IMG/VR virus record: IMGVR_UViG_3300035179_000035
Coordinates: 1 to 36,334 of that record
Reading direction: 5' to 3' (one strand)
Source: a virus
DNA length: 36,334 nucleotides
Each line of letters opens with the position of its first letter. The stretch's first letter is position 1. Both the position numbers and the translations under genes were made by a program. Below, in pieces: positions 1-36,334 of this stretch. The notes under the pieces are model-generated. The model saw only the letters and a program-made list of their open reading frames with translations, made no database searches and had not been told where the DNA came from.

Positions 1-186
1 CCCCCGCAGTTTTCGTTCCCCTTTCTTCCGGCGACTCAACCCAAGTTTTACGGCTCGCTGCTTTATCAAGCCAGCACTTCTCCCTGGGATTGCCGCGGTA
101 AGGACCTGATCGCTTGAATCCCCAAAAATCTCTCTCAACTTTGCGTCTTCCTCTGGCCTCCAATTTTTCCTTCCTCTCTTACTCAT
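1..186 (-). CDS. Myb/SANT-like DNA-binding protein, cut by window edge
   Basis: The N-terminal 62 residues are visible and the frame runs off base 1 without a stop. The first 55 residues look like a Myb/SANT-type helix-turn-helix: a tryptophan (NWRPEED), a spaced leucine/isoleucine pattern, then GRSAGLIKQRAVKLGL, followed by a basic linker. The ATG at 186-184 has GGAGG at good spacing and overlaps the stop of the upstream DUF5131 gene by a few bases, so the two are translationally coupled. The open frame at 36097-36334 has a similar domain and may be the rest of this protein. A DNA-binding regulatory or packaging role is inference. Confidence 0.7.
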   Translation of the reverse strand, partial: MSKRGRKNWRPEEDAKLREIFGDSSDQVLTAAIPGRSAGLIKQRAVKLGLSRRKKGERKLRG

Positions 187-832
187 ACTTTACCTCCTTC
201 TGTTCCGGAAATTCTCGAATCCTTTCTGCCCACCGTAAATTCGGTTTCAGAAAAAGCGGGATCCCGGATGCCTTCACTTTCTCAATCAGGGGACCCGCCC
301 ACTTCTTCGCCGATTTTTCGTCCTTTGGCGTATAAGAATTTAACTCGGTTTCCGCCCCGATGATCGCCCAATCAATTCCCTGTAAATCTACCTCATCGAT
401 AAATCCGAGAATTGGTTCAAAGGAAATAAATTTTATTCGTGCGTTTGCTTTTTTAAGATAATTGATTTTCGGAACATCTTCCTGCTTCGTGATCGATGTG
501 CCGACCCAACAATTGCTGGGGAATATGAAGCCGGGATACCGGCTGGGGTTTTTAGTCAAGAATTGAAAGATATGCTGCGGACATAATTTTGTTGTTTCTA
601 TAACTTCCCTTATCTGCCAATCCTGCACCCATTCCCCGAACAGATCTCCGGTGTTCGCCACGAATATCGTCGTCGGTTTCTTGAGTGTTAGCGGTTCGTT
701 TAAGAGGTTGCCGTGAAACCGCGGCGTCATATCCTTCATGTGTCTCTTGCAATAGCAATAGGGGCAGCCGTGTTTGCAGCCCGTAGAGATTTTCCAAACC
801 ATTTCCGTCCATTCGATTTTGGTTTTTCTCAT
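179..832 (-). CDS. DUF5131 (phage Gp37/Gp68-like) radical-SAM-type protein
   Basis: A 217-residue protein of the DUF5131 family, frequent in phages. The N-terminus has the family pattern KIEWTEMVW followed by a CxxxCxxC motif (CKHGCPYC, Cys19, 23 and 26), the cysteine spacing used by radical-SAM enzymes for a 4Fe-4S cluster. Later parts (GDLFGEW, FQFLTKNP, WVGTSI, KFISFEPILG, WAIIGAE) are also typical of the family. The substrate is unknown. I chose the ATG at 832-830, because family members begin just before KIEW and this start clears the upstream gene's stop; a 24-residue longer form opening at 904 overlaps that gene. A GGGCGGGA stretch upstream could serve as ribosome site. Confidence 0.85.
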   Translation of the reverse strand: MRKTKIEWTEMVWKISTGCKHGCPYCYCKRHMKDMTPRFHGNLLNEPLTLKKPTTIFVANTGDLFGEWVQDWQIREVIETTKLCPQHIFQFLTKNPSRYPGFIFPSNCWVGTSITKQEDVPKINYLKKANARIKFISFEPILGFIDEVDLQGIDWAIIGAETELNSYTPKDEKSAKKWAGPLIEKVKASGIPLFLKPNLRWAERIREFPEQKEVKYE

Positions 833-833
833 C

Positions 834-1094
834 TCAATATATTCCCGCCCTTTTCTCCCTGTTTTTCTCTGTAAAAAACTTCTCGTATTCCTCAACATTG
901 TCATTTATTTCAAGGATGGTAATTACTTCGTCCACATTAAACGGTTCAATCGCTTTCAACCACTCCATTCTCTCACACATCTTGCACCAGGTTGGAGCGA
1001 AAAAAAATCCGTCCTTAACTTTTACGATCATGTTGCTACCGTTCGCGAACTCCACCTGATACAAAACATTTTCCTTAAATTTAGATTCGCTCAT
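834..1094 (-). CDS. Hypothetical protein with a CxxC pair
   Basis: An 86-residue protein I do not recognise. The first half is hydrophobic and beta-prone (VLYQVEFANGSNMIVKVKDG) and is followed by WCKMCERMEW, a CxxC pair that could bind metal or form a disulfide. The C-terminus is acidic, then basic. AGAAGG precedes the ATG at a good distance. It is directly upstream of the DUF5131 gene in the same direction, separated by 1 nt, and is the first gene downstream of the candidate origin. Confidence 0.75.
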   Translation of the reverse strand: MSESKFKENVLYQVEFANGSNMIVKVKDGFFFAPTWCKMCERMEWLKAIEPFNVDEVITILEINDNVEEYEKFFTEKNREKRAGIY

Positions 1095-1147: not shown

Positions 1148-1347
1148 TTATCCACAGGTTTTAAGTTATTAAATCTCAATCTATAATCTATCATTTATAA
1201 TCTCATATATATAATGTATGTTGATGTTGCACCTATGCAACATCACGTTGCACCTATGCAACATCACGTTGCACCTATGCAACATCACGTTGCACCTATG
1301 CAACATCATTTATCCCCAAATTCTTAAGCGTCGTTGAGTTATCCACA
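1148..1347. other. Candidate replication origin (iterons, AT-rich stretch, DnaA boxes)
   Basis: Three elements of an iteron-type origin lie together: a perfect DnaA box TTATCCACA at 1148-1156, an AT-rich stretch at about 1157-1222 that could unwind, four tandem palindromic iterons at 1223-1307, and a second perfect TTATCCACA at 1339-1347. The array overlaps the last codons of a gene for a winged-helix protein (1296-1655), as plasmid rep genes often lie against their iterons. The order of elements is read directly; that this is the working origin is inference. Confidence 0.65.
1223..1307. repeat. Four tandem palindromic iterons, 21-bp period
   Basis: The core GTTGCACCTATGCAACATC starts at 1226, 1247, 1268 and 1289, exactly 21 bp apart (two helical turns), joined by an AC dinucleotide. 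Each unit is a dyad: GTTGCA, spacer CCTA, TGCAAC (in the first copy the arms extend to GATGTTGCA/TGCAACATC). The four cores are identical. The last unit supplies the final codons and the TAG stop of the leftward gene at 1296-1655. Confidence 0.95.
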
Positions 1348-1655
1348 AGGTACTTGGTGCCCTTTGTGCCCACCATTGCCTCCACTTTCGGATCATGTTT
1401 CGGTATGAACCAAACCGGTGTTTTGCCGGCTAACCCGATTTTTTTTACAAACCTCTTTTTTTTTAAGAGGTTGAAGGCCCTCCAAGTTGTTGTGCGATCA
1501 TAATCAATGGCCTTGGCAATATCATTGATGGCTTGAGCAAATACCCCGCAACGATCACAAGTCAAAGTCATTATGATAAAGACCGAAAGCGGGGCCCCCT
1601 TAATATCCTTCAAATGCTCCTTAATCCCTACTCTTAATTTGCTGTATTGTTTCAT
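1296..1655 (-). CDS. Winged-helix/HTH protein, candidate replication initiator
   Basis: A 119-residue protein with a helix-turn-helix in residues about 35-75: AINDIAKAIDYDRTTTWRAFNLLKKKRFV followed by a beta-wing (KKIGLAGKTPVWFIP). This resembles the N-terminal winged helix of phage O-type and plasmid Rep proteins, but it is far shorter than full initiators (usually 200-350 residues). Its 3' end runs into the iteron array, making iteron binding the obvious hypothesis. It could instead be a transcription regulator of the downstream genes. GGGAGG lies very close to the ATG, so the ribosome site is not ideal. Confidence 0.75.
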   Translation of the reverse strand: MKQYSKLRVGIKEHLKDIKGAPLSVFIIMTLTCDRCGVFAQAINDIAKAIDYDRTTTWRAFNLLKKKRFVKKIGLAGKTPVWFIPKHDPKVEAMVGTKGTKYLVDNSTTLKNLGINDVA

Positions 1656-4459: not shown

Positions 4460-4621
4460 TTAAACCTCTCTCACTCCCCCGATTAACTTTTCAATCTGGC
4501 GGGGAGCCGGACAGAAAGGTGGTGAGTCGAAACTGCCCGGCCCCGCGGTTTTACCCGATCGCCGCTCGTGACGGCGATCGATTTCCGCATTTCCCATCAA
4601 AGTATGTTTATTCATTACCAT
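4460..4621 (-). CDS. Small ORF downstream of the nuclease gene, doubtful
   Basis: 53 residues from the ATG at 4621-4619 (another ATG at 4615), overlapping the last codons of the nuclease gene. It has basic and proline-rich stretches (RRHERRSGKTAGPG, SPPFCPAPRQIEKL). A perfect 9-bp inverted repeat lies within it, so part of this stretch may act as RNA rather than protein. Ribosome site weak. Confidence 0.3.
   Translation of the reverse strand: MVMNKHTLMGNAEIDRRHERRSGKTAGPGSFDSPPFCPAPRQIEKLIGGVREV
4556..4580. repeat. Perfect hairpin: 9-bp arms, 7-nt loop
   Basis: CGATCGCCG (4556-4564), loop CTCGTGA, CGGCGATCG (4572-4580). It lies about 30 nt downstream of the nuclease stop on the minus strand. 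No U-tract follows on either strand, so it is not a standard terminator. It could protect an mRNA 3' end or bind a dimeric protein. Confidence 0.8.
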
Positions 4622-5654
4622 TCTCTTTTTCTGGCTCCCCAAGTTGTTTTATATTGATCCTCCAGGAACTTTCCTCCACAGCGTATTGTTTTTTTACATC
4701 ATCAGGAATGTCATAAGCTGTCCTTGAGATTGCTTTGCCAGTAATCAAGAAGTTCCCAACGATTGTTTCCGGTTTGCCGCGGAATAGTTCTTTGACCTGC
4801 TTATCAATTTTGTTGTATTCCTGATATGCCGGAATTAAACCCTGACGTTGATTAAGCATTTTTTCCAGCTCCTCACTCGCGATAATCTCTACGCCGATGT
4901 ACTCGGTTCCTACTAGGCAAATGTGCCGAAAATCACACCTCTCGCAAGTCACAGGGCAGTATTTAATCCCTTCCTCCCGCATGATTTGATCAACAACCTT
5001 TTCCTGTGGCTCTTTTCGCCCCATGTAAGCGTTGACCTTCTGGGCCCGGACAAGAGCTGCCTCGGCAATATCCAGGTGATCATCCAGCTTTGTCCAGATA
5101 TGCTTGGGTTCGTTTGTGGACTTGCTCTTGAGATAAAGGAATCCAACTGGGGAGGCATCCATAAGCAGATAAAGCATTACTTGGGCAGGATATTTAATAA
5201 GCCAAATTTTTTCACTATCCAGAAAATCTTGAATGAAATTCATCCTTTCCCAATCATGGTGTTGCAATCCCTTGATTTCTCCTGGATACGGCTTTTCGTT
5301 ATGAGGAGCCTCTGGCTCGCGGAGCTTGCAGTCAATCTTGCCGGTTATTTGATATATGGGCCACTCAAACGGCCGGCTCTGTTCCAGGATTTGAAATCCG
5401 CCGTCGTTCTTAAGTTCATTGATCGCCTCATCCTCTATCCGGCGGCCATTTTCAAAAATGAAAGCTAACGTAACGGTAGGGAGAGCCCTCTGACTCCAAG
5501 CCGTCCGCAGGAAATAAAGATATAGGACGCAGGGATGCCCCAATTCACTTGCCCGGTTTGACCGTACCGGCCAGGCCTGGATCTTCCTTTCTTTCCCTGC
5601 CCTGACCCTGCCGGAAATATCAATCAATTCTTTGCCGACAACAACCTCGTTCAT
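4608..5654 (-). CDS. Cas4/RecB-like PD-(D/E)XK exonuclease
   Basis: 348 residues. The Cas4-type layout is visible: a first cysteine in GHPCVLYLYF (Cys42), catalytic Asp in TGKIDCK (Asp108), E-x-K in YPGEIKG (Glu126, Lys128), a RecB-family QxxxY motif (Gln158, Tyr162), and a C-terminal cysteine cluster (Cys233, 237, 240, 246). Cys42 with three of the latter probably holds a 4Fe-4S cluster. About 90 residues follow the cluster, unlike short Cas4 proteins. The start (TAATG) overlaps the stop of the annealing-protein candidate. Such a nuclease paired with an annealing protein forms a phage recombination system; that role is inference from family and context. Confidence 0.85.
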   Translation of the reverse strand: MNEVVVGKELIDISGRVRAGKERKIQAWPVRSNRASELGHPCVLYLYFLRTAWSQRALPTVTLAFIFENGRRIEDEAINELKNDGGFQILEQSRPFEWPIYQITGKIDCKLREPEAPHNEKPYPGEIKGLQHHDWERMNFIQDFLDSEKIWLIKYPAQVMLYLLMDASPVGFLYLKSKSTNEPKHIWTKLDDHLDIAEAALVRAQKVNAYMGRKEPQEKVVDQIMREEGIKYCPVTCERCDFRHICLVGTEYIGVEIIASEELEKMLNQRQGLIPAYQEYNKIDKQVKELFRGKPETIVGNFLITGKAISRTAYDIPDDVKKQYAVEESSWRINIKQLGEPEKENGNE

Positions 5655-7341: not shown

Positions 7342-7366
7342 ATTGAGAGATGGGTGTTGTGGTAAA

Positions 7367-7627
7367 ATGCCGACATCAAAGAAATTACATGAACGATTGC
7401 GAAGGTTGCGAGGCACAATCTCGCAGGAACAAGTGGCGGCCAGTATTGGTCGATCATACCATTATTATTATCTTATGGAGGCAGGAAAGAAATTGAATCC
7501 ATCCCTTGATGTTTTGACCAAGCTCGCCGACTTCTATGGCATCTCCATCGACGAACTGGTCGGCCACAAGATCAATAAGGACCCGAAATGCGACTGGTGG
7601 TTGCCGGACAAAAGGAGGAAGAAGTGA
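7367..7627 (+). CDS. XRE-family transcription repressor (candidate immunity repressor)
   Basis: 86 residues from the ATG at 7367 (a TTG 8 codons upstream would add a Cys-rich stretch and is less likely). A Cro/CI-type helix-turn-helix occupies residues about 6-62: LHERLRRLRGTISQEQVAAS, SIGRSYHYYYLMEAG, LDVLTKLADFYGISIDELVG. No cleavable C-terminal domain follows, so it is not a LexA/CI-type protein with RecA-dependent self-cleavage. It faces away from the leftward early genes across a control region with promoter and operators. The ribosome site is weak (GGGTG about 11 nt upstream). Confidence 0.8.
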   Translation: MPTSKKLHERLRRLRGTISQEQVAASIGRSYHYYYLMEAGKKLNPSLDVLTKLADFYGISIDELVGHKINKDPKCDWWLPDKRRKK

Positions 7628-8365: not shown

Positions 8366-8632
8366 ATGGCATTAAGAGATAAACTTAGATTGATCCGTTA
8401 TGAGGAGCATTGGTCCCAGGAAGAAGCTGCTCGCGAGTGTGGCTTATCCTATGCCTGGTGGAGAGCCCATGAATGTGGCAGCCGAACAAACCCTACCCTT
8501 AATGCCCTGGTTAAGGTTGCTTCCCGGGTCCGCAAATCAATCGACTGGCTGGTAGATTATCACCCGGATTGGCGGCGGATATTCAACAAAAACTGCCCTA
8601 CTCGTTTTTCGAATAGGGCAGCAACATCCTAA
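8366..8632 (+). CDS. Second XRE-family DNA-binding protein
   Basis: 88 residues with an N-terminal Cro/CI-type helix-turn-helix (LRDKLRLIRYEEHWSQEEAA, ECGLSYAWWRAHECG, LNALVKVASRVRKSIDWLV). The helix order matches the protein at 7367, but the two are clearly diverged. The last 15 or so residues are read from a terminator stem and may not be functionally important. No strong ribosome site was seen. A Cro-like partner of the first repressor is a reasonable guess. Confidence 0.7.
   Translation: MALRDKLRLIRYEEHWSQEEAARECGLSYAWWRAHECGSRTNPTLNALVKVASRVRKSIDWLVDYHPDWRRIFNKNCPTRFSNRAATS
8585..8621 (-). terminator. Terminator ending the leftward structural/lysis operon
   Basis: On the minus strand an 8-bp stem CTGCCCTA (8621-8614) / TAGGGCAG (8600-8593), with inner TCG/CGA pairing, is followed at once by TTTTTGTT: a textbook intrinsic terminator. 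It sits 20 nt past the last leftward gene and overlaps the 3' end of the convergent XRE gene. The same stem lacks a U-tract on the plus strand. Confidence 0.85.
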
Positions 8633-9441: not shown

Positions 9442-9873
9442 TCACACCTTTATCCACTTACCTAAAACGCTGTCATAAAGCAACATAGCTGTATCAAATT
9501 CATCATCCAGCGTAATATCGCCGCCAGTGAGTTTAAGATTGCCGGTCCCGTGTTTTAGGACTACGGTTCTGGCATCATTCTCCGGCCGGAGAATAAGGAT
9601 ATCCCCGGTGTTAAAATTTGTGGCATTGATCGTGTCCAGGTCATCAGAGGCCCCATTGCTCTCCGTATCTACCGTGTGATAGGCCCCGGTAGGAGCAATC
9701 ACTCCGGAGACGATCGTAAGTTCAGTCGATCTCCCAAAGCAAAGTTTTTTAACAAAGGCCCGGTCCATAACCAGGTCATATTCACCGCGTCTAAACCACC
9801 GCAGGATGGTGGTGATTATCCGCATTATATTTGTCTCTATGCTCGAATCTTTTAGTTCAGGGACCAATGCCAT
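9442..9873 (-). CDS. Beta-rich virion-like protein
   Basis: 143 residues. An N-terminal amphipathic helix (NIMRIITTILRWFRRGEYDL) precedes a beta-rich part (ELTIVSGVIAP, TGDILILRPEN, RTVVLKHGTGNLKL) ending DSVLGKWIKV. The second half resembles the end of the protein at 25932-26336 (GDILRL, LMYNATDAKWYQ) and other phage structural proteins. The exact virion role is unknown. It overlaps the ATP-grasp gene by 17 nt. Confidence 0.6.
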   Translation of the reverse strand: MALVPELKDSSIETNIMRIITTILRWFRRGEYDLVMDRAFVKKLCFGRSTELTIVSGVIAPTGAYHTVDTESNGASDDLDTINATNFNTGDILILRPENDARTVVLKHGTGNLKLTGGDITLDDEFDTAMLLYDSVLGKWIKV

Positions 9874-11188
9874 TGTTTTTCCCTCTCAGATATTCCTTTT
9901 TGACCAGTCCTTCCCATCGTTCCCGAGCCTCCCGGCTCATGTCTGTTCTAAACTGACGATTCGCCAGCCCGACCTTGAAGGCCTTGTTATAGACATCCCG
10001 GCCCAGGTCTGCCAGGTCGCGACCATAGCCCAAGACCTCCAGTACCACTCCATCTGTTCCGGCCACTTTGTAGCGGCCATCCTCGGCCATCACATCCAGG
10101 GGCAGATAGGATCTGTCTTTGAAATCCACGTCAACCTCCAGACCCTTTGTCTCGGCATAGATCTTAACCTTGAGGCTTTTATCCGTAGAATCGAAGGGAT
10201 AAGGCGGCACCGTAACCCGAACTGCTCCGCCAAACCCGGATTTCCAGGGGATCTCTTTGAGGCTGCCTTCTACTAAGTCGGAGAGGAACTTGCCAAGTTC
10301 CATGTCAAGGACTTGAGTCATTGCGTAAACCGCATTGTAGCCAAACCTGGGGCACCACTCCAAGCCGTAGAGTTGGCCATCTCTATCGGACACAATTCCG
10401 TTGATATCAAGCGGGCCCGTGTATCCGGTCCCTTTAATAAGGCCAATTGCCTTTTTAAGCGACTTTTGGTAGAGCCGTGGCTCCTTTTCCCTATATCCCC
10501 ACACAACGCTCGTCTGGCAACCCGTTTGCCCCCCCAGGTTGTCGTTTAAGAACCTCTTGGTCTCCAAGGTAGAATTTGGAGGCAATATCGGGAATCCATT
10601 AGAGAAAAAGACCTCGGTTGATACCTCTATCCCTGCCACATACTTTTGGAGAACAAAATCCCTCTTAATTGCCCGCTCTTTTTTCCACTTTTCAAGTTGC
10701 CCGATGAGCTGATCCATATCCTTGGGAACAAAGGTCATGTCCGTAGGCAGATTCCCGGAGGGTTTGATTACCCATCGGCCCGGATGGGCTTTCACAAACT
10801 CCAGGGCGTCATCGATTTGCTTAAACCGGGCCATACTGGGGATTCGGATCTTAAGGGAATCCATCATCTCCAAGCCAAAACTGCGGTCAAGTTCCAGTTT
10901 ATCGGAAAGACTCTCGGACCCGTACCGGCCCATGCCAGCACCGATAACCTTGTGTCCGGCCTTTCTCAATCGGTCCGCCAAGAGTCCCTGGCCAACCATA
11001 TCGAAAATAATTATTCCTTCTTTATTTTTAATTGCCTCCGAAAGCGAGGATGCCTGCGGGATCATATCCTTGAGGCCATAAGAATAGCTTTTATCCAGAA
11101 AATATATACTGACATCATTGCCTTCGCGGGCGAGTTGCCAAATAAGGCCAAGGCCATCGCCGTGCTGAGAAATAAGGGTATATCTCAT
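9857..11188 (-). CDS. ATP-grasp enzyme, PurD-like
   Basis: 443 residues with the layout of an ATP-grasp ligase: an N-terminal Rossmann-like part (GLGLIWQLAREGNDVSIYF), a PurD-like start of the ATP-grasp domain (GSESLSDKLELDRSFGLEMM), the ATP-binding lysine strand (RWVIKPSGN), the linker strand (DFVLQKYVAGIEVSTEVFFS) and a late metal/ATP region (GYTGPLDINGIVSDRDGQLYGLEWCPRFG). It is related to phosphoribosylamine-glycine ligase, but the true substrate cannot be read from sequence. It overlaps the polyvalent-protein gene (ATGA) and sits between ejection and lysis genes, with no purine genes nearby. Confidence 0.82.
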   Translation of the reverse strand: MRYTLISQHGDGLGLIWQLAREGNDVSIYFLDKSYSYGLKDMIPQASSLSEAIKNKEGIIIFDMVGQGLLADRLRKAGHKVIGAGMGRYGSESLSDKLELDRSFGLEMMDSLKIRIPSMARFKQIDDALEFVKAHPGRWVIKPSGNLPTDMTFVPKDMDQLIGQLEKWKKERAIKRDFVLQKYVAGIEVSTEVFFSNGFPILPPNSTLETKRFLNDNLGGQTGCQTSVVWGYREKEPRLYQKSLKKAIGLIKGTGYTGPLDINGIVSDRDGQLYGLEWCPRFGYNAVYAMTQVLDMELGKFLSDLVEGSLKEIPWKSGFGGAVRVTVPPYPFDSTDKSLKVKIYAETKGLEVDVDFKDRSYLPLDVMAEDGRYKVAGTDGVVLEVLGYGRDLADLGRDVYNKAFKVGLANRQFRTDMSREARERWEGLVKKEYLRGKNNGIGP

Positions 11189-34703: not shown

Positions 34704-34985
34704 TTAATTAAAAGAGGTTAATTTTTGCCCAACTTGTCCCAAATGTTTCCAGGCCTGTTTAACTAATTGAGAAACGCGAGAGCGGGAAATCCTTAAATGA
34801 CAAGCAATTCGTGAGCGTGTCCAATTTGACAAAACAAGTTTTTTAATAATAAAGGCCTCACGTTTGGGAATTTGCTTCAAGGCCTCATCAATTAGCCCAA
34901 CCCTTAATTCTTGACCCAAGGGTGGCAGGGGGTCCCAGGCTGGAAAACACTCTATCAGCTTGCCTATCCTGAGCTCTCTGGTCAT
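34704..34985 (-). CDS. Sigma-region-4-like HTH protein, late regulator candidate
   Basis: 93 residues. The C-terminal half is a sigma-70 region 4-type helix-turn-helix: LKQIPKREAFIIKKLVLSNW, then TRSRIACHLRISRSRVSQLV and KQAWKHLGQ. No region 2 is present, so it is not a complete sigma factor. Short proteins of this type (ArpU/RinA-like) switch on late phage genes. It stands just upstream of the terminase genes, as those regulators do. The ATG overlaps the stop of the nuclease gene (ATGA). Confidence 0.7.
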   Translation of the reverse strand: MTRELRIGKLIECFPAWDPLPPLGQELRVGLIDEALKQIPKREAFIIKKLVLSNWTRSRIACHLRISRSRVSQLVKQAWKHLGQVGQKLTSFN

Positions 34986-35691: not shown

Positions 35692-35925
35692 TTACACCTT
35701 CCCCTCGATATATTTGACGGCCTGACTAACCATTAGGATCTTCTCCGCATCCTCATCCGGGATCTCTAACCCGAATTCCTCCTCCAGGTCCATGACCAGC
35801 TCAACCATATCCAGGGAGTCAGCCCCGAGATCATCAACAAAACGGGTCTCGGGTTTGACCTCGGGATCTAAGACCCCCAACCTATCCATAATCACTTTTT
35901 TTACTCGGTCAAAAATGTTTTCCAC
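35692..35925 (-). CDS. acpP: Acyl carrier protein
   Basis: 77 residues, a full-length match to bacterial AcpP: a first helix ([15 protein letters not shown]), the DSL motif in [20 protein letters not shown] with Ser37 as the 4'-phosphopantetheine attachment site, then [10 protein letters not shown] and a last helix. The apo form would be modified by host AcpS. No fatty-acid or polyketide gene is nearby. The start is GTG, with GAGGAGAGG upstream. It overlaps the end of the mini P-loop gene. Why a phage would carry AcpP is unknown. Confidence 0.93.
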
Positions 35926-36100
35926 TGTTCACCTCTCCTCTTTTTTTGATTTCTTTCAACTCTAAAATATAGGCGGCCCCTGGAGTGAGCAAAACAATCG
36001 ATTGGCCAGGTTTTGTTTTTTTGATCGCCTCCACAAACGCCCGGGCCACCAGAGTTGATTTCCCGGGTCTTCTGGCCCCCACCCCCGTCAATTGCTTCAT
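35909..36100 (-). CDS. Mini P-loop protein
   Basis: 63 residues. A Walker A motif GARRPGKST (residues 8-16) is followed by a helix ([16 protein letters not shown]) and a strand ([15 protein letters not shown]). No Walker B or further NTPase domain follows, so the protein ends far short of a working P-loop NTPase. It may be a fragment, or a nucleotide-binding partner of another protein. The ATG overlaps the Myb-like gene stop (ATGA). Confidence 0.6.
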
Positions 36101-36334
36101 GTATCAAACCTGATCTTATTTACTTTGAGGACCAGATCCAAGGGTACCACGATTTCCATGGGCCCCTTCTCCAAATATCCGACATCGAGATCCATTCGCT
36201 TTGCCTCCTTCAAGATATCCTTAATCGACCAACCGATATCCCGGACCAGAGTCTCTTTTGATGCTTTGGCCCCGATTAAGCCGGTAAGGTTCTCGATATC
36301 CTTCACTGACCATCTGCTCTTACGGGGGCCGCGC
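36097..36334 (-). CDS. Myb-like DNA-binding protein, cut by window edge
   Basis: The frame is open from the right edge (79 codons) with a Myb/SANT-like domain: RWSVKDIENLTGLIGAKASK, then RDIGWSIKDILKEAKRMDLD, and a beta C-terminus (KGPMEIVVPLDLVLKVNKIR). An internal GTG at 36306 would give 69 residues but drops the domain's tryptophan, which lies in the same open frame; so the true start is upstream, outside the window. The domain matches that in the gene at 1-186. Confidence 0.7.
   Translation of the reverse strand, partial: RGPRKSRWSVKDIENLTGLIGAKASKETLVRDIGWSIKDILKEAKRMDLDVGYLEKGPMEIVVPLDLVLKVNKIRFDT

Follow-up and report, generated by a model that had tools for sequence, protein, structure and literature searches.

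Near the left end of the window, which is the whole stretch analysed here (the entire 36,334-bp IMG/VR record, classed there as 'linear'), a tandem array of palindromes, an AT-rich tract and several DnaA boxes lie together at the end of a gene for a small winged-helix protein (Table 1). The array comprises four identical 16-bp palindromic cores, GTTGCACCTATGCAAC, each with 6-bp arms around 4 bp, and their exact 21-bp spacing, already pointed out in a preliminary description of this DNA, is borne out by period-21 identity that is exact across 1226–1308. For periods of 4–60 this is the sole exact tandem run above threshold in the whole window, its own multiple of 42 apart. The palindrome of the first iteron extends further, to arms of 10 bp (1222–1245), and an in-frame TAG stop is present in every iteron. 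As a single strand the array folds with z = -6.75 relative to shuffles, with 0 of 200 shuffles equally stable. Across viral contigs the exact 16-mer is found as 14 single copies, approximately the chance expectation.

The AT-rich stretch beside the iterons is the extreme of its surroundings, with the 60-mers starting at 1159–1160 being 85% AT, the maximum for the whole 36 kb. Two perfect DnaA boxes, TTATCCACA, are where they had been reported, on the same strand and flanking the array, and there is in addition a one-mismatch version, TTATCCCCA. By chance 0.23 perfect boxes are expected per window, and two within 200 bp of each other occurred in none of 300 simulated windows. A separate observation is that a 17-nt string, ATATATATAATGTATGT, at 1205–1221, is present in identical form in L041, L050, L055 and similar marine contigs, where it adjoins 21-bp TTGCA-N4-TGCAA arrays located upstream of the gene for a terminase small subunit.

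Table 1. Features of the proposed origin region, and selected genes elsewhere in the window
Feature	Position	Strand	Remarks
SANT-like regulator, N-terminal half	1..186	-	runs off left end; phrog_323 E 6.9e-5
Perfect DnaA box TTATCCACA	1148..1156	+	on AT-rich side
AT-rich tract, probable DNA unwinding element	1157..1221		holds most AT-rich 60-mer of the window
Iteron array (n = 4, period 21 bp)	1222..1309		cores 1226-1241, 1247-1262, 1268-1283, 1289-1304
119-aa winged-helix protein, proposed replication initiator	1296..1655	-	ORF; stop codon within iteron array
DnaA-box-like TTATCCCCA	1310..1318	+	one mismatch
Perfect DnaA box TTATCCACA	1339..1347	+	within 3' end of 119-aa gene
Cas4-like exonuclease	4608..5654	-	phrog_1990 E 9.8e-15; same early leftward transcription unit as 119-aa gene
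Xre/HTH_3 regulator, possible repressor	7343..7627	+	PF01381 above cut-off
Second small Xre-like regulator	8366..8632	+	phrog_8 E 4e-6; Pfam HTH below cut-off
SANT-like regulator, probable C-terminal half	36097..36333	-	right end; joins 1-186 in frame

The 119-residue protein

The gene for the 119-residue protein ends at a TAG (1296–1298) inside the array, which agrees with the earlier statement that the origin elements overlap the 3' end of a helix-turn-helix (HTH) gene. Only the end of the array, the TTATCCCCA sequence and the 1339 box are coding, the remainder of the array being just downstream of the gene. As the origin elements are thus not contained within initiator coding sequence, the site, which would work like an O-type origin, is not filed as one. 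Read-through of the TAG to extend the initiator was considered and rejected, since a TGA in the AT tract follows after about 31 more residues; the use of TAG to end other genes here also opposes it.

Profile searches with Pfam, PHROG and NCBIfam yielded no family above cut-off for this protein, and at E<=1 there was neither an O-like PHROG match nor, in the Pfam scan, a plasmid Rep family. No relatives were detected in viral contigs, phages or plasmid records. AlphaFold2 models, from the protein alone and with three sequences, are of low confidence (pLDDT 41 and 35) and have the shape of a winged HTH, with two helices at residues ~37–50 and 54–66 followed by a beta hairpin at 71–83; Foldseek found no significant match to them. 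The protein is 33% identical over 39 residues to the winged HTH of an initiator from another viral contig, L174 (E 0.003 in a single comparison), and hhalign against a profile of nine O-like initiators, though weak (E 0.016, probability 2.9%), places the HTH in register. The recognition helices agree: DRTTTWRA in this protein, NRSTVHRA in contig L042 and NRSTISRA in L174.

Genome context

The open reading frames at the two extremities of the contig join in frame if the contig ends share one base, and the joined protein scores 29.1 bits against phrog_323 across the junction, versus 23.5 when the left half is scored by itself and 20.9–24.1 when it is joined to a shuffled right half (n = 8). No overlapping viral contigs were found at either end. 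On this sequence evidence the contig is probably a complete circle of ~36.3 kb, or a circularly permuted genome, despite its 'linear' record.

Phage structural genes are present, with a terminase, a portal-like head-tail adaptor and a major capsid protein. Relatives of the latter are 28–62% identical, and among its matches are phages that catalogues assign to Vibrio and E. coli, e.g. PTXU04 and HelliStehle_Bas95; the terminase, when used as a search probe, retrieved distant relatives only. Several other genes merit mention in their own right. A 443-residue ATP-grasp protein resembling PurD (9857–11188, minus strand; TIGR00877 at 62 bits and GARS_A, both below cut-off) is encoded between an M23 endopeptidase gene and the gene for a 1652-residue protein, an unusual presence in a phage late region. 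An acyl carrier protein is phage-encoded at 35692–35925 (minus strand; above the cut-off of several NCBIfam models), a DUF5131 (radical-SAM-like) protein at 179–904 (minus strand), just downstream of the origin, and a small sigma-70 region 4 domain protein, possibly a late-gene regulator, at 34704–34985 (minus strand), near the terminase genes.

Occurrence of the palindrome elsewhere

A scan of 2.9 million viral contigs, on DNA only, for two tandem copies of GTTGCA-N4-TGCAAC at any close spacing matched only four other contigs. L042 (also G012) has five copies of the palindrome within a gene for a 197-residue HTH protein that is directly upstream of a DnaB gene (E 7e-71). L174 has palindromes at nt 302–414 of a gene for a 380-residue winged-HTH protein, which has matches to initiators of the DnaD-like (E 2e-6) and O-like (E 3e-4) types. 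Twelve related palindromes (TGCA-N4-TGCA) are in one open reading frame of L175, with the most AT-rich 40-mer of that locus directly after the last of them, and the array in L176 is outside any recognisable initiator gene. From these sequence associations the palindromes are read here as iterons belonging to winged-HTH initiators, which would bind them.

A looser pattern, TTGCA-N4-TGCAA present twice at 21 bp, has a wider distribution, with 38 viral and 50 genomic loci. Many of the latter are on chromosomes, in arrays that are spaced by multiples of 21 bp and lack DnaA boxes or an evident initiator, and in a family of marine phages similar 21-bp arrays are upstream of a terminase gene. Given the existence of both types, a 21-bp palindromic array is not diagnostic in itself; the combination of features is. 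The chromosomal arrays, of up to 21 copies (L097, L114, L121, L123, L132, L137, L141, L146 and others), are from Chitinophagales, Acidobacteria, Prevotellaceae, Verrucomicrobia and other bacteria, and have no recognisable gene association. Nothing specific was found in the literature on 21-bp intergenic palindromic satellites.

Relation to known origins

The origin of phage lambda is within gene O and has four iterons, each an inverted repeat, beside an AT-rich tract, with O dimers as the ligand (PMC7466680). Four tandem inverted-repeat iterons with an adjoining AT-rich tract are also what is found here, likewise at about nt 300–450 from the start of a winged-HTH initiator gene. Repeats are at ~nt 260–450 in seven of eight annotated O-like initiator genes used as controls. 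However, the initiator gene in the window ends before most of the array, whereas that of lambda reads through it, and the iterons here recur every 21 bp, against a spacing that in the O-like controls is most often 24 bp. In addition, the searches turned up neither a helicase gene nor one for a loader, and perfect DnaA boxes, which are in none of the eight controls, flank the site.

DnaA boxes are familiar from iteron-containing plasmid origins, with the P1 origin having arrays of them on both sides (PMC4980987). As at P1 oriR and RK2 oriV, the site in the window combines iterons, DnaA boxes and an AT-rich unwinding element, but its iterons are palindromic and, for its initiator, plasmid Rep families give no match at E<=1. 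The Vibrio H20-like phages also encode a short HTH protein (155 residues in H8) whose gene has iteron-like repeats at its 3' end, though there the spacing is 24 bp and DnaA boxes are absent; these phages bear an integrase and are temperate (PMC5454434).

A close parallel in anatomy comes from a relative identified via its capsid protein, G003 (IMGVR_UViG_3300026519_000003; 46,847 bp, terminal repeat of 127 bp). Its 272-residue initiator has matches to phrog_6643 (E 5.5e-34), the O-like phrog_678 (E 2.8e-25) and HTH_36, and the gene contains two DnaA-like boxes (nt 285 and 296), four palindromic iterons (nt 313–460) and an AT-rich side. Counting from the start of the 119-residue gene, the window has DnaA boxes at nt 309 and 500, iterons at 348–431 and the AT tract at 458. 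The order, winged HTH, DnaA boxes, palindromic iterons and AT tract, is shared and the distances match, and like the window G003 has no match to DnaB, DnaC/IstB, integrase or ParA. In contrast, its palindrome is different (GTCCCA..TTTTGGGAC) and its initiator is full-length. With the palindromes differing and the capsid protein being the only protein detectably shared, the sequences are indicative of similar anatomy rather than of proven common descent of the origin.

A proposed mode of initiation

That this is an iteron-type origin, as the preliminary description had proposed, is well supported, since two perfect DnaA boxes occur at the same place as the array and the 60-mer with the highest AT content of the window, a conjunction not expected by chance, and since the palindromes recur in the initiator genes of L042 and L174 with a similar layout in G003. 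With a probability of roughly 0.8 the site is the phage's theta-type replication origin, on a lambda-like plan in which the sites bound by a winged-HTH initiator, and a tract that melts, come directly after the initiator's gene. It is probably a real and functional origin of known general kind, and unusual for its minimal initiator and its DnaA boxes.

The steps that follow are inferred from this anatomy and from the recurrence of the iterons within initiator genes. Dimers of the 119-residue protein would bind the four palindromes, which, as 21 bp corresponds to two helical turns, would be on one face of the helix. The AT-rich tract would then be melted by the wrapped complex acting jointly with host DnaA, which would occupy the boxes on either side. 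DnaA at the two boxes may also recruit the helicase of the host, in the manner of P1- and RK2-type origins (PMC4980987), and host replisomes would copy the circularised genome. The 119-residue protein stops after its winged helix, and the helicase and loader searches, which covered the families DnaB (PF03796) and DnaC/IstB (PF01695), gave no match in the window or in G003; for these reasons loading of the helicase by host DnaA is the simplest proposal. The architecture is the lambda plan (PMC7466680) to which the DnaA boxes of iteron plasmids are added.

The location of the array between the 119-residue gene and the leftward genes downstream of it (834–1094 and 179–904) raises the issue of whether the palindromes are instead operators by which the protein regulates the promoter of those genes, with the DnaA boxes being incidental, and the arrays upstream of the marine phage terminase gene are a precedent of sorts. 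This is quite improbable: no good sigma-70 promoter was found at the site, clustered DnaA boxes and the most AT-rich tract of the window would be left unexplained, and in L042 and L174 the same palindromes are within initiator coding sequence. A further possibility is prompted by at least a dozen chromosomal loci with tandem TTGCA-N4-TGCAA at multiples of 21 bp and no DnaA boxes or evident HTH gene: a neutral intergenic minisatellite of this widespread palindromic type may have landed here by chance. Such an array would have no initiator gene, DnaA boxes or unwinding tract beside it, and all three are present in the window; moreover, the copies here are identical and their core sequence matches those in the initiator genes of unrelated phages, and a chance landing is very improbable.

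Lifestyle

The proposed origin most likely serves lytic replication. The preliminary description had gone further, from an iteron-type origin to a temperate phage kept as a low-copy plasmid, and it is this second part that is not supported, because lambda-type lytic origins share the anatomy and such origins occur in both lytic and integrating phages. L042 has a tyrosine integrase in addition to the related array in its initiator gene, and a prophage-like contig, G011, has a tyrosine integrase at its end.

Several of the observations on which a plasmid prophage was based are nevertheless sound. A six-frame search gave no match to the integrase families PF00589 or PF00239, and with the contig ends joining in frame within one gene, this absence from a probably complete circle may be real. 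Integration via Xer is rejected, no dif-like site being found. A possible repressor cassette is seen as well, in that two small HTH genes of Xre type run divergently from the early genes, the first encoding a possible repressor, and DnaA boxes flank the iterons as they do, in arrays on both sides, in P1 (PMC4980987). That the prophage is a low-copy circular plasmid, replicated from this origin and tied by the DnaA boxes to the host cycle, is nonetheless rather unlikely. In agreement with the earlier remark that no partition gene was seen, the partition search, which covered ParA (PF13614), gave no match, while mycobacterial phage-plasmids that have no integrase carry parABS instead (PMC7157519). 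The initiator matches no plasmid Rep family, the capsid protein is in 0 of 72,556 plasmid records and its matches include the catalogued Vibrio and E. coli phages named above, and both of the inspected phage-sized plasmid records with an O-type initiator also carry an integrase. The GC-skew switch that had been anticipated at the locus is not seen; skew is negative on both sides, and is uninformative since the genes nearly all share a strand.

Lambda-type origins can maintain a plasmid, as with lambda-dv, so that lifestyle is not something that sequence can decide. The missing integrase and the two Xre regulators allow a plasmid prophage; a lytic phage fits equally well. The fullest version of the former, a complete circular, temperate phage of ~36.3 kb without an integrase, whose only replicon is a lambda/P1 hybrid with palindromic iterons and a minimal 119-residue initiator that has no domain for recruiting a helicase, which host DnaA would load both for lytic growth and for a plasmid prophage that has no partition system, is decidedly unlikely.

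Implications

A small winged-helix protein that was previously unannotated can now, from sequence considerations, be linked to a probable replication origin. Its palindrome, GTTGCAC-N2-RTGCAAC, recurs within the initiator genes of otherwise unlike phages, and this DNA pattern lets origins be found where phage initiators are too divergent for family searches. The site has a minimal initiator, DnaA boxes on its flanks and no match to a helicase or loader, and is thereby a testable example of a possible dependence of a phage origin on the DnaA of its host.
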